From positions 4,456-41,016 of the forward strand of contig PCVX01000006.1 in assembly GCA_002796105.1 (NCBI GenBank): a stretch of DNA of 36,561 nt. Reading direction: 5' to 3'. Shown here in pieces: positions 6,895-32,832 of this stretch. Below the pieces are notes generated by a model. It was not told the DNA's origin and did no database searches. It saw nothing but the letters and a program-made list of their open reading frames with translations. This DNA comes from Candidatus Omnitrophica bacterium CG11_big_fil_rev_8_21_14_0_20_63_9 (GTDB taxonomy: Bacteria; Omnitrophota; Gorgyraeia; Aquiviventales; Aquiviventaceae). The position numbers and the translations under genes are program-made. Within the stretch, counting starts at the first letter, position 1, and each line of letters opens with the position of its first letter.

Positions 6895-7352
6895 CGGAGA
6901 TCTCTCTGTCCTCCGGCCTGGGGGAGGAAATGTCCCCCGGCATTCTGGTCACCTGCCTCATCCTCTCGCCTGATGGCCGCATCACGCTCGACCCTGGCGC
7001 GCTGCATGGCCGCAGCCGGCTTGAGCAGCCGGTCCAGTGGGCGGCGCGCCGCGAAGAGCTTGCCGACCCGCAGTGCTACCGGTTCATCTGGGTCGCGATG
7101 GAGTTGGACCATGCCCAGCAGCCGTTTCGCTACAAAGGTCTGGCGGTCTCCGACGTGTGGCTCGATGCTCAGGGGCGGGGCTTTAAAGCGATGGCGGATT
7201 CGGTCAACCGGATCAGCGACGCGCTGATGGGGCGCGCCGATGCAAAAACGCTCAGCGGCAAAGAGCGCAGGGCGCTGGAGCAGCACCTGAAAACGATTTC
7301 GGAAAACTTGTGGGACCGGGCGGCTGAGCCGGTGAAGAGGGCGCTCTTATGA
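6891..7352 (+). CDS. Unknown protein between mqnC and bioB
   Basis: This 153-residue protein is linked to its neighbours at both ends: ATGA overlaps with mqnC (6891-6894) and with bioB (7349-7352). I do not recognise the family. It has no signal peptide or membrane segment. The N-terminal half looks like a beta-rich fold (ILVTCLILSPDGRITLDP, YRFIWVAMEL, YKGLAVSDVWLD). The C-terminal third is a charged amphipathic helix region (SGKERRALEQHLKTISENLW). There is no Cys pair or nucleotide-binding motif. The fixed position inside a cofactor operon suggests an accessory role in menaquinone or biotin synthesis, which is inference only. Confidence 0.8.
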   Translation: MTEISLSSGLGEEMSPGILVTCLILSPDGRITLDPGALHGRSRLEQPVQWAARREELADPQCYRFIWVAMELDHAQQPFRYKGLAVSDVWLDAQGRGFKAMADSVNRISDALMGRADAKTLSGKERRALEQHLKTISENLWDRAAEPVKRALL

Positions 7353-8356
7353 ACTGGGCGGACCTGATCCAGCGGTCGCTGGCGGGACAAGGGATCACCC
7401 GCGAAGAAGCCAAGGCAATCCTCGCGCTGCCCGATGAGCAGGTGCCGGCAGCACTCCAGGCGGCGTTTGAGGTGCGCAAAGTCCATTTCGGCAAGCGGGT
7501 CAAAATCTGCGTGCTGCAAAACGCGCGCAGCGGGCTGTGCCCGGAAGACTGCCACTACTGTTCTCAATCGTCCATCTCCAGCGCCAAGATCGACAAGTAC
7601 CCGCTCATGACCAAAGAGCAGCTCGTGGAGGGGGCGCGGCGCGCGGCCGACGCCGGAGCCAAACGGTACTGCATGGTCACCAGCGGGCGCGGGCCGGTGG
7701 ACGACGAGATCGAGTACTTCTGCGACGTCACTCGGGAAATCCGACGGCACCACTCGCTGGAAATCTGCGTGTGCCTAGGGCTGCTCTCCGAGGCTCAGGC
7801 CAGGAAGCTGAAAGATGCCGGAGTCGGCTGGGTCAATCACAACCTCAACACGAGCGAGCGCTTTTATCCCGAGATTTGCTCGACGCACACGTACCAGGAC
7901 CGGGTCGACACGGTGAAGAACGTGCGCAAGGCCGGGATGATGACGTGCAGCGGCGGGATCATCGGCATGGGCGAAACCGATGACGACATCCTCGACATGG
8001 CCTTCGCCTGCCGCGAGCTGCGGATGGACTCGATCCCGATCAACTTCCTGCACCCGATTAAGGGCACCCCGATGGAAGGCTTCCAGCTGCTCACGCCCAT
8101 GAAGTGCCTGAAGGTGCTGTGCGTGTTCCGCTTTCTGAACCCGGCCAGCGAGATCCGCGCGGCGGGCGGCCGGGAAGTGAACCTGCGTTCGGTGCAGGCG
8201 ATGGTGCTCTATGCGGCCAATTCGATCTTCGTGGAAGGATACCTAACGACTTCGGGCCAGAAAGCGGAAGAGGCCCGCCGGATGATCGAGGACTTGGGCT
8301 TCGAAGTCGAAGCCGAGCCATGCGAGGCATCCGCAAGCGTCAAGGAGGGGCAATGA
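7349..8356 (+). CDS. bioB: Biotin synthase BioB
   Basis: This 335-residue radical SAM enzyme inserts sulfur into dethiobiotin. The SAM cluster Cys residues are C64, C68 and C71 (CPEDCHYC). Candidate auxiliary-cluster residues are C108 (YCMVTSGR), C140/C142 (EICVCLG) and C200 (TCSGGIIGMGET). The substrate and SAM block reads NHNLNTSERFYPEI, with Asn where many homologues have Asp (NHNLDTS). The C-terminal GANSIF-like block (YAANSIFVEGYLTT) is present. It is joined by ATGA to the gene before it, and its stop overlaps the next start. No other biotin gene is in the window, so this may be the only dedicated biotin step here. Confidence 0.9.
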   Translation: MNWADLIQRSLAGQGITREEAKAILALPDEQVPAALQAAFEVRKVHFGKRVKICVLQNARSGLCPEDCHYCSQSSISSAKIDKYPLMTKEQLVEGARRAADAGAKRYCMVTSGRGPVDDEIEYFCDVTREIRRHHSLEICVCLGLLSEAQARKLKDAGVGWVNHNLNTSERFYPEICSTHTYQDRVDTVKNVRKAGMMTCSGGIIGMGETDDDILDMAFACRELRMDSIPINFLHPIKGTPMEGFQLLTPMKCLKVLCVFRFLNPASEIRAAGGREVNLRSVQAMVLYAANSIFVEGYLTTSGQKAEEARRMIEDLGFEVEAEPCEASASVKEGQ

Positions 8357-26340: not shown

Positions 26341-26424
26341 CATTCTCGATAACGGCAAACTCCGAGCAATCGGAGGACGCAAAGCCACGGGTCCTACAGG
26401 GACAGCCGGGTTACCGAAAGAATG
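26341..26424 (+). ncRNA. Cyclic di-GMP-I riboswitch (GEMM-I)
   Basis: This RNA matches the GEMM-I consensus in order: GGCAAAC, a stem CTCCGA/TCGGAG capped by the tetraloop GCAA, GGACGCAAAGCCACGGG, then CAGCCGGGTTACCGA. The outer stem is CATTC (26341-26345) with GAATG (26420-26424). The GNRA tetraloop and the downstream receptor-like helix are the usual docking pair. It should sense c-di-GMP. A terminator about 30 nt further on is the probable expression platform, so the switch would control read-through into the two small genes at 26513 and 26933. Confidence 0.93.
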
Positions 26425-26520
26425 CATATGTTCACGACATCCACCGCACTGACTGCACGCAGCCATGCTGCGTGCGTTTCCTTTTCCCGCACGCTTTCTT
26501 CCTGTGGGCGCCATGCTTGA
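26422..26520 (+). CDS. Possible leader peptide in the riboswitch platform
   Basis: A 32-codon open frame starts at an ATG in the closing stem of the riboswitch (a second ATG at 26428 is in frame) and runs through the terminator hairpin. It ends at a TGA that overlaps the start of the next gene as ATGCTTGA (26513-26520). A GAAAG stretch precedes it. The translation is Thr/Ser/Ala-rich and has no known match. Translation-coupled control of the main gene is possible but unproven; chance occurrence is a real alternative. Confidence 0.3.
   Translation: MHMFTTSTALTARSHAACVSFSRTLSSCGRHA
26455..26486 (+). terminator. Terminator of the c-di-GMP riboswitch
   Basis: A perfect 9-bp stem, GCACGCAGC (26455-26463) with GCTGCGTGC (26467-26475), has a 3-nt loop and is followed by GTTTCCTTTT. 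It is the likely off-state structure of the switch. Confidence 0.8.
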
Positions 26521-27312: not shown

Positions 27313-27324
27313 CGGGTCAATCGC

Positions 27325-27489
27325 ATGCGCAACGCACCCGCTCGGCAAGTCGCCGAAGAGCTCAAAGTCCTTCTGGAGCGCCTGCGGGCGCTCGGCAAGG
27401 AAGAGCGCGTCCGCAAGGGGCCTGACACGGAAGCGATCGAAATCGCGGTCGTCAACCTCGATGCCGCGATCGATATCCTGACCGAGTAG
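27325..27489 (+). CDS. Small 54-residue protein of unknown function
   Basis: This short frame encodes a well-behaved protein, MRNAPARQVAEELKVLLERL followed by RALGKEERVRKGPDTEAIEIAVVNLDAAIDILTE. It has two predicted helices, many acidic and basic residues and no membrane segment. Codon use matches neighbouring genes (third positions mostly G or C). It has its own extended -10 promoter and no ribosome site, suggesting leaderless translation. I do not recognise the family. The 3' side is followed by the palindromic element B. Confidence 0.6.
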   Translation: MRNAPARQVAEELKVLLERLRALGKEERVRKGPDTEAIEIAVVNLDAAIDILTE

Positions 27490-27568
27490 AGCTCTACCGC
27501 TTCCAGCCCCTCATGCCACGTTGGTCATTCTGTCATCACCGCTGCGGCATCATAACCAGGCGTGAGCC
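27490..27568. other. Short gap before element B
   Basis: Nothing recognisable is seen. The long open frame that begins at 27513 and passes through element B is not taken as coding. Confidence 0.4.
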
Positions 27569-27858
27569 TAGAGTTGGTTTCACAACCTCGCGCGAGCCGC
27601 GTTGCGAACGCCAGCGGGCTAGATGCCAGGAGCGACGACGAAGGTGTACCCCCTGGGGTACTCCGAGGAGGAGCGACACCGCAGATGGCCCGCTGCCGCC
27701 GCAACCACCTGTCGGACCATGGGCTGGGCCGATCTGCGTCGCCCCGCGTTGTTGCTCGTCGCTCGCGTACTCGTCTGCGAGTACGCCACGCTCCTCGCGC
27801 CTCGCGGGGCTCGCACCTCGGCCCAGCGCGGCTGCGGGAGGTTTTGAAACCAACTCTA
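27569..27858. repeat. 290-bp MITE-like element with terminal inverted repeats (element B)
   Basis: The left end (27569-27593, starting TAGAGTTGGTTTCACAACCT) and the right end (27834-27858, finishing TTTTGAAACCAACTCTA) are inverted copies with two mismatches in 25 bp. With a 1-nt bulge, the match continues to AGCCGCG (27595-27601) and CGCGGCT (27827-27833). Inside are perfect hairpins GCGTACTCG/CGAGTACGC (27765-27786) and GTACCCC/GGGGTAC (27646-27661), plus AGCGGGC/GCCCGCT (27613-27619, 27688-27694). AGGAGCGAC is repeated directly at 27628 and 27669. No transposase is encoded. The right end stops one base before the AAGGAGG of the next gene. Confidence 0.8.
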
Positions 27859-27869
27859 AGGAGGTCGCG

Positions 27870-28202
27870 ATGAAACGACTGATTCTGGGATTGGCGGCGG
27901 GTCTCATGCTGGGCGCCATGGCCTACGGGCAGGATGATGACGCGCTGCAGAGCGCGCGGCTTGAAGAAATTGCGGTGGGCGCCGGCAGCCGCGCCACCTT
28001 CGCGGTGCCACCGGAGTACGGCCGGCTGGCCGATGTCGCGGTGAATTCTGGGGTCCACTACCTGTATTTTGAGGATTCGCAGGGAGTCATCCGGCTCGTC
28101 CTGATCGGCCCGCGGGGCGCGGTGCCGCGCTCGCGGCTTGACGTGCAGCTGCTCAGCCCGCAGGTCTACGTGGTGGAGCGCGCTGCTGCGCCGGCATCGT
28201 AA
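27870..28202 (+). CDS. Small exported protein of unknown function
   Basis: This 110-residue protein has a signal peptide (MKRLILGLAAGLMLGAMAYG, cleavage near AYG-QDDD). A mature domain of about 90 residues follows, with beta-strand character (RATFAVPPEYGRLADVAV, VHYLYFEDSQGVIRLVLIG). I do not recognise the family. A strong AAGGAGG site precedes ATG 27870 and starts one base after the right inverted repeat of element B, so the element occupies the promoter or leader region. Longer frames that begin inside the element are rejected. Confidence 0.75.
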   Translation: MKRLILGLAAGLMLGAMAYGQDDDALQSARLEEIAVGAGSRATFAVPPEYGRLADVAVNSGVHYLYFEDSQGVIRLVLIGPRGAVPRSRLDVQLLSPQVYVVERAAAPAS

Positions 28203-30748: not shown

Positions 30749-30751
30749 AAA

Positions 30752-30786
30752 GCAAGCGACCCCCGAGAAACTCGAGGGTCGCTTGC
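30752..30786 (-). terminator. Intrinsic terminator of the cold-shock gene
   Basis: A 16-bp stem with one mismatch (30752-30767 with 30771-30786) and a 3-nt loop is followed on the minus strand by GCTTTTT. On the plus strand there is no T-tract, so it mainly serves the cold-shock transcript. Confidence 0.85.
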
Positions 30787-30789
30787 GTG

Positions 30790-30815
30790 GTTAGCCTCGC
30801 CGAAGCGGGGCTAAC
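30790..30815 (-). other. Second hairpin in the cold-shock 3' untranslated region
   Basis: GTTAGCCTCGC and GCGGGGCTAAC form an 11-bp stem with one wobble and a CGAA loop, 12 bp after the cold-shock stop and just before the terminator. It may protect the mRNA 3' end. Confidence 0.6.
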
Positions 30816-30827
30816 AGGCTCAAGACC

Positions 30828-31031
30828 TTAGGCCTTGGTGACGTTAGAGGCTTGCGGTCCCTTCGGCCCTTGGGTGATTTCGAACTCCACCGCCTGGCCT
30901 TCCTTGAGGGACTTGAAGCCATCACCACCGATAGCGGAGTAGTGGACGAAAACGTCCTTTGAGCCATCATCCGGGGTAATGAAACCATACCCCTTCTGAT
31001 CGCTGAACCACTTCACGGTGCCCTTTGCCAT
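30828..31031 (-). CDS. csp: Cold-shock protein (CspA family)
   Basis: This 67-residue nucleic-acid chaperone contains both RNA-binding motifs, KGYGFIT (RNP1) and DVFVHYSAI (RNP2), in a five-strand OB fold starting [19 protein letters not shown] precedes the ATG at about 10 nt. On the minus strand the upstream region contains a CCGCA/TGCGG hairpin followed by TTTTT (about 31062-31103). This is typical of the long structured leaders of cold-shock mRNAs, though its role here is inferred. Confidence 0.95.
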
Positions 31032-31374
31032 GTCTAACCCACCCCCTTCCTAGCTACAAAAACACAAAAACCGCACGGCAACCTCATCGGCCACCTTGCG
31101 GCTCCCAACGAAAGTCGATTGAATTTGGCTAGCTTGACTAAACTTCCGGACAGAGCACGAACTGTTAATGCGTCGTACCTCGTACGCGCTGCGTCTTCAT
31201 AACCACAAGGTTTCCAAGATGTTGCAGCGCACTAAGCTTTCGGTCCGGTTGGTAAGGAACGCCCAATGGACCTCAGCTAGACTAGGAACGCTCAAAAGGA
31301 TACCTGAAAACTCCTTTGGCGTCAATAGAAATTTCTCCCGGGCAATAGGGTACAATACTCCAGGAGGTATCGGG
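31032..31374. other. Divergent intergenic region
   Basis: This 343-bp stretch separates the cold-shock gene (minus) from the Memo-AMMECR1 gene (plus). It holds the structured cold-shock leader near 31062-31103, a -10-like TACAAT at 31351-31356 and the AGGAGG site of the plus-strand gene. It is less GC-rich than its neighbours. No further gene is seen. Confidence 0.5.
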
Positions 31375-32832
31375 ATGTGGAAAACCAGGCTGTTTCTTGT
31401 GCTGCTTTTGGTGGTCGCCGGGCCGCTGACAAGCGCCACAGCTCAGGTTAGAGAAGCCAAAGTCGCCGGGCAGTTCTATCCGGACGACCCGGCTGAGCTT
31501 CAGGAGCTTGTCCAGGAGCTGTTGAAGCGGCAGCCTGAGCCGGTATTTACCGGAAAACCCAGGGTGCTTATCGTTCCGCATGCCGGCTACCAGTATTCCG
31601 GCTTGGTGGCGGCCAATGGGTTCCGGCACCTCCAAGGGCATCGCTACGATGGGGTGGTCGTGGTGGGCTTCATGCATCAGAGGCCCTTTGCAGGCGCTTC
31701 GGTGGATACCGCCGAGGCGTATCAAACCCCTCTGGGCGAAATCCCCATCGATCAGGAAGCGGTCGCCATCCTCCTGGCGCATCAGGGTATTCGGCATGTA
31801 GAGGAAGCCCATGCGAGCGAGGAACACTCGCTGGAAGTGGAGCTGCCGTTCCTTCAGGAGGCGCTGGGGCGGTTCAAGCTGGTGCCTGTCTTGATGGGGA
31901 GCGCCGATTGGAAGGATGCCGAGCAGCTGGCCGAGGCGCTCTCCACACTGGCTAGAGTTGGAGATTACCTGTTCGTCTTCAGCAGCGATTTGTCCCACTA
32001 CCGGCCGTACAGCCAAGCGCAGCAGATCGATGAGGCGGCGGTCAGCGCCATGGTGTTGGAGACCTCCCAGGCGCTGCACCGGCTCTTTGCGACCGGCGAG
32101 ATCGAGGCCTGCGGCCGCGGGCCTATCGTGACCAGCGCGCTGCTGGCCGCCAAGCTCGGGTATCTCAAGCGTGAGCCGCTCTACTACGCGAACTCCGGCG
32201 ACACCTACGGCAACCCAAAGAGCGTCGTGGGGTATGCGGCGATTGCCATGTATGAGCAACCGATGCCGGCAAGCGGACGGCTTTCTCCTGAAGCGGGAAT
32301 GGCGCTCGTGCGGGCGGCCCGGGCGTCGCTTGAGTACGGGCTGCGTCGGCGGGATGGACCCAATCCTTCAGAGGAGCTCAAGCGCTATCCAGAGCTCTCG
32401 CAAGCCAGCGGGGTGTTCGTGACACTGCGCAAGCAGGGCGCGCTACGCGGATGTATCGGCCGCATCGAGGCGACCGAATCGCTCTCAATGCTCGTGCCGC
32501 AAGTGGCGCTGGACTCAGCGCTGCGCGACAGCCGGTTCCAGCCTGTCACCGCCGATGAGCTGGTTGAGCTGCGGGTGGAGGTCTCTGTGCTCACGCCGCC
32601 AGCCCGGCTGCCGGCTCATGAAGACCTGGTGCCTGGCAGAGACGGCGTGATTCTGGAATACCAGGGGCGACGCGGCGTGTTTTTGCCCCAGGTCTGGGAT
32701 GAAACCGGCTGGACCCGTTTGGAATTCCTGCGGGAGCTGGCCTCGCAAAAAGCCGGCCTACCGCCAGATGACTGGGAGCAAGCCACGCTGTACGTGTTCC
32801 AGGATCAAATGTTTGAGGAGCCTGCTAATTAG
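31375..32832 (+). CDS. Exported AmmeMemoRadiSam fusion: Memo (B) plus AMMECR1 (A)
   Basis: This 485-residue protein starts with an apparent signal peptide (TRLFLVLLLVVAGPLTSATA, then Q). The Memo domain spans about 25-295 and has the metal-like residues in IVPHAGYQYSG, GFMHQRPFAG, EEHSLEVELPFLQ and SSDLSHY. The AMMECR1 domain spans about 303-485 and has SGVFVTLRKQGALRGCIG near 342-363. These two families are usually encoded with a radical SAM enzyme (AmrS), which is not here. Export of such a protein is unusual. ATG 31375 follows AGGAGG; the frame is open upstream, but that region is non-coding in character. Confidence 0.87.
   Translation: MWKTRLFLVLLLVVAGPLTSATAQVREAKVAGQFYPDDPAELQELVQELLKRQPEPVFTGKPRVLIVPHAGYQYSGLVAANGFRHLQGHRYDGVVVVGFMHQRPFAGASVDTAEAYQTPLGEIPIDQEAVAILLAHQGIRHVEEAHASEEHSLEVELPFLQEALGRFKLVPVLMGSADWKDAEQLAEALSTLARVGDYLFVFSSDLSHYRPYSQAQQIDEAAVSAMVLETSQALHRLFATGEIEACGRGPIVTSALLAAKLGYLKREPLYYANSGDTYGNPKSVVGYAAIAMYEQPMPASGRLSPEAGMALVRAARASLEYGLRRRDGPNPSEELKRYPELSQASGVFVTLRKQGALRGCIGRIEATESLSMLVPQVALDSALRDSRFQPVTADELVELRVEVSVLTPPARLPAHEDLVPGRDGVILEYQGRRGVFLPQVWDETGWTRLEFLRELASQKAGLPPDDWEQATLYVFQDQMFEEPAN

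Follow-up and report, generated by a model that had tools for sequence, protein, structure and literature searches.

The element at 27571-27856 of the window, by which we mean the whole stretch of 36,561 nucleotides that was analysed, is with a probability of about 85% a MITE with exchangeable ends. The MITE-like nature proposed in the preliminary description is supported by dispersed copies in related genomes, an empty site, TA or TNA target duplications and an insertion sequence (IS) that carries the ends of one class of terminal inverted repeats (TIRs). As a non-autonomous element, it would depend for its movement on transposases of the IS5 family (IS427-like) acting in trans, which would recognise the TIRs and use TA or TNA as insertion sites. 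The interior is a conserved two-hairpin core common to elements with many unrelated TIRs, and not a worn-down transposase gene. The features at the locus are as follows, where A1 is an alignment of copies of the element.

27324-27491, plus strand: upstream small ORF that marks the empty site, 65-67% identical in the relatives G002 and G012
27569-27570, no strand: left TA target duplication, with the pre-insertion site CC-TA-AGGAGG (flank comparison)
27571-27856, no strand: very probable complete MITE, 286 bp, non-coding (TIRs, dispersed homologous copies, empty site)
27571-27593, plus strand: left TIR, class GAGTTGGTTTCAcAACCTC (arm complementarity, pattern search)
27601-27705, plus strand: left core hairpin, stems covary (A1 columns 31-145)
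27629-27641, plus strand: 5' strand of the tandem G.A helix, GGAGCGACGACGA (A1 columns 61-73)
27665-27677, plus strand: 3' strand of the tandem G.A helix, GAGGAGGAGCGAC (A1 columns 105-117)
27723-27827, no strand: lower stem enclosing the right hairpin, 27723-27738 with 27812-27827 (inverted-repeat comparison)
27741-27810, minus strand: right core hairpin, in which the G.A motif recurs on the other strand (A1 columns 191-264)
27834-27856, minus strand: right TIR, matching the left TIR (arm complementarity, pattern search)
27857-27858, no strand: right TA target duplication (flank comparison)
27870-28202, plus strand: downstream gene of 110 aa without a Pfam match; its synteny is kept in G012, where the element is absent

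The near-perfect inverted repeats first noticed at the ends were confirmed by a comparison of the arms 27569-27593 and 27834-27858, which are 92% complementary (23 of 25 bp). A pattern search of the window with the 19-bp TIR found two places, both of them element arms, at a chance expectation of 0.03. The stretch 27569-27858 is predicted to fold strongly, both as RNA (MFE -175.7 kcal/mol, z = -9.1, none of 200 shuffles as good) and as DNA (z = -7.9). The element had been given these same boundaries (290 bp), which we refined to 27571-27856, since the TA at either extreme belongs to the target duplication. Its own end class is GAGTTGGTTTCANAACC. The copies of the element (n = 89) are 255-295 bp long and have no transposase gene, which places them inside the MITE size range of about 50-500 bp. 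Some reading frames are open in the window element. Nevertheless, a coding reading was rejected, because the lengths of the 89 copies are spread over every class modulo 3 and none of the frames stays open in the majority of copies. The initial view that the element encodes nothing holds, as no frame is conserved across the copies.

The empty site that the preliminary description had suggested looking for was found in the syntenic relative G012, where a YtxH-like gene, the small ORF, the 110-aa gene and a 343-aa gene follow each other and the element is absent. Between the small ORF and the 110-aa gene there are about 20 bp in G012 versus 380 bp in the window. In G002, the same flanking genes as at the window locus have a different gene in between. 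Judged from this synteny, the insertion of the element did part the 110-aa gene from its upstream neighbour. The right end adjoins AGGAGG, and it had been supposed that the element might have supplied or removed regulatory sequence. It did not supply this ribosome site: the Shine-Dalgarno sequence is native, and the element was inserted directly upstream of it, because AAGGAGG precedes the same gene in the element-free G012. Several other features were seen in the window. A c-di-GMP-I-GGC riboswitch (26345-26419, plus strand, 71.2 bits with a gathering score of 59) precedes both the ORF at 26465 and the YtxH-like gene. A cspA thermoregulator match (30751-31174, minus strand), which may be marginal at 79.8 with a gathering score of 78, adjoins a Memo/AMMECR1 gene, and at 31168-32832 (plus strand) Memo-like and AMMECR1 domains are fused in a single gene.

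The search for other copies proposed at the outset was successful in part. Its own incomplete genome (1.86 Mb, 84% complete) has one copy of the element, whereas copies with 65-89% identity were present in 24 of 99 related genomes, the closest showing 88-89% identity across nearly the full element length. Seven genomes were searched in full and had 5-16 matching places each. Two TIR-like places in the element's own genome (C13 and C65) were discarded; they have neither core nor partner and look like chance matches. The expected target duplications were also observed, as TA or TNA flanks the copies. Perfect 3-bp duplications occurred in 24 of 88 copies (TTA/TTA in 8, TAA/TAA in 16), and shuffled pairing of the flanks gave a mean of 12.9 three-base matches and did not exceed 24 in any of 2000 trials. 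The 3-bp duplications belong to the GAG-type copies; the GAA-type and other copies show TA. A 2-bp TA duplication was found in 28 of the 88 copies, which is weak evidence alone because TA is a fixed target, and either form was present in 52. The single TA duplication at the window copy is likewise weak evidence by itself. Taken together, the dispersal, the duplications and the empty site show, by genome comparison, that the element is mobile.

The exact core pattern was found in 102 stretches among 84,980 species genomes. Those with TIRs belong to three phyla: Omnitrophota, Elusimicrobiota and, with one Colwellbacteria (L140) and one Yanofskybacteria (L175) copy, Patescibacteria. The strict pattern was present in 16 of 384 genomes of the window's phylum, every one of them in the class of the window's genome. 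Velamenicoccus archaeovorus, whose genome is complete, contains three copies, and no two of them have the same TIRs. Pattern matches in Planctomycetota, Myxococcota, Gemmatimonadota and one further bin lacked clear TIRs and were left out of the element count. No matches were obtained in the plasmids, phages and viral contigs searched. Shortened forms of about 170 bp that retain the TIR at either end were seen at G002:C23:65452-65621, which retains only the right part of the core, and at G074:C26:34665-34836. We found no published description of the element family in the literature open to our search.

The two ends of a copy were then compared with each other and with those of other copies. Within a copy, the left and right 18 bp are 97.8% identical (89 copies). 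Between copies, the ends are 42% alike overall and 55% alike within the window's type, with 67 different left 18-mers among the 89 copies, and they differ even between copies with almost the same core. The share of TIR base pairs with a change on either side of the pair was 23-42% at every level of core divergence, counting pairs in which both bases had changed; at 5-10% core divergence, 25 of 64 TIR pairs were double-changed and no single-sided change was observed. Since the double changes are independent of core divergence, the ends are replaced together and do not drift with the core. These comparisons among the copies show that the TIR class is decoupled from core ancestry. Two copies with unlike ends (L009 and L046) lie at contig ends. 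They could be intermediates of end exchange or chimeras of the assembly, and on the latter account they were set aside. We consider the odds about even that, in the extruded palindrome, a new end would serve as the template from which the other end is rewritten. With such copying, pairs of ends would change together and the element would be able to follow different transposases. Recombination between copies, or the capture of the core by different ISs, are possible alternative routes of exchange.

The mobiliser was sought among insertion sequences with the same ends. A pattern search also found solitary TIRs of the class TAGAACCGGTTTCATAAATCC, one of which adjoins a transposase gene that matches PF13340 (5e-27) and the NF033580 IS5 family model. 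A complete IS with perfect 20-bp TIRs, TAGAACCGGTTTCATAAATG, is present in G021 of the same bacterial family (C125, about 7119-8037), and its transposase matches PF13340 and NF033580. The MITE class TAGAACCGGTTTCATAAATCC, found in G002, G005, G014 and G015, is identical to this IS in its first 19 end bases; beyond the ends, no shared interior was seen between the two. The G021 IS is the autonomous element with the same ends for the class TAGAACCGGTTTCATAAAT. IS5-family groups use TA or TNA targets. IS5-family (IS427-like) transposases are therefore the likely mobilisers of the MITE family, a sequence-based assignment made because the TIRs of a complete IS5-type IS are identical over 19 bp to those of one MITE class. 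For the window copy, the mobiliser is deduced from this sister class, because the genomes searched yielded no IS with ends of the window's own class and the window genome has no NF033580 match. From the remaining NF033580 matches, no TIRs identical to those of a MITE class were obtained. An IS5-like element of about 1.2 kb (L258, G074:C40, 1291-2470) has a transposase frame with one TAG and the TIRs TTGAGGATGCGTCATAATTCCGC, which resemble a MITE end class and are not identical to it.

The core was analysed in A1, which contains 40 aligned copies and for which a structure of 58 pairs was named. The structure is 97.0% paired in A1. Forty of the 58 pairs covary versus 24.5 in shuffles, and 345 cells are double-changed versus 90, values reached by none of 500 shuffles, which ignore the relatedness of the copies. 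Sliding the partners destroyed the covariation, a lenient control since the structure was partly read from A1 itself. RNAalifold gave a poor covariation term on the alignments because the TIR classes and loop lengths differ, and the set structure with pair counting was used instead. Each hairpin arm has one helix of tandem G.A/A.G mismatches. In the left arm, these occupy columns 62-63/115-116, 66-67/111-112, 69-70/108-109 and 72-73/105-106 and are kept in 73-100% of the 40 copies. The Watson-Crick pairs between them covary (64/114 is GC in 24 and AT in 10 copies), and a variable bulge lies at column 74. In the right arm, the motif is inverted relative to the left. The mismatches are probably under selection, because template switching, by which palindromes are perfected, would remove them. 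Outside the pair 76/103, we counted 20 G.T and 19 A.C mispair cells in the core stems, and this equal frequency favours a DNA-level structure over a one-strand RNA. From the predicted structures, a DNA-level role of the core hairpins is a balanced proposition: as single-stranded or cruciform DNA, rather than as RNA, they would aid transposition or persistence.

We also considered an ordinary MITE, whose interior has no function and whose likeness between phyla would stem from recent horizontal transfer within groundwater communities. Many copy-bearing hosts indeed derive from the same groundwater metagenome projects, and stable stem-loops are described as general in MITE transcripts (PMC10969869). 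However, copies at 65-75% identity still keep the pairing and the G.A motif, and so do the Patescibacteria copies, whose AT-rich stems are of unrelated sequence. This makes an ordinary MITE unlikely.

The strong fold, the covariation and the position of the window copy in a 5' leader would also suit a functional RNA, either a small RNA or a cis-regulatory element, riding in MITEs with selection on the transcript. RNAs often contain conserved, non-canonical G.A motifs. However, no Rfam family matched even at permissive thresholds, G.T was no commoner than A.C outside the pair 76/103, unlike in RNA under selection, and the two arms carry the G.A motif on different strands. We regard selection on a transcript as quite unlikely.

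A REPIN-like origin, with an inverted REP hairpin pair moved by a Y1 (RAYT/TnpA-REP) transposase, is very improbable: the REP-like reading proposed initially holds only for the two inverted imperfect hairpins with their G.A motifs on opposite strands, and 10 of the 15 genomes tested contain Y1 transposases, but the link is inconsistent, with no Y1 gene in the copy-bearing G014, G023, G043, G074 and G098 (three of them at least 93% complete), the TIRs and TA/TNA duplications are of the DDE/IS5 type, and the arms of about 70-105 nt are larger than REPs, given as 20-40 bp in PMC3733652.

Returning to the MITE with exchangeable ends, we tentatively suggest, as a possibility that falls short of being probable, that it is a structure-selected DNA parasite. 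Its transposase-independent two-hairpin core, with both ends renewed together by intrastrand templating, would follow successive IS5-type transposases across phyla, and the tandem G.A helices would be a protein recognition site. MITEs are usually viewed as remnants of one insertion sequence, bound to its transposase. A conserved interior with exchangeable ends separates the moved part from the mover and offers a testable system for mobiliser switching by non-autonomous elements. It also brings to light an undescribed tandem G.A DNA hairpin motif in Omnitrophota, Elusimicrobiota and Patescibacteria.

Among known systems, Coxiella QMITE2 resembles the element in TIR length (23-29 bp), in having a separate core and in its stable predicted fold. 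It differs in its 7-9 bp duplications, and the passages of PMC10969869 consulted describe no TIR exchange for it. Like REPINs and BIMEs, our element is dispersed and non-autonomous and has an inverted pair of imperfect hairpins; unlike these, it has long TIRs, TA/TNA duplications, much larger arms and no consistent Y1 link. In integron attC sites, structure is better conserved than sequence and the hairpin is strand-specific. Both properties are shared by the element, which differs in lying outside an integron context and in having TIRs and duplications built like those of a DDE element. With IS5-family (IS427-like) MITEs, it has in common the sharing of TIRs with an autonomous IS, seen for one TIR class, the TA/TNA duplications, the length of 255-295 bp and the lack of a transposase. 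It differs from them in that its GC-rich interior contains no decayed transposase gene, one core is combined with many TIR classes, and the core stems covary and contain conserved tandem G.A helices.
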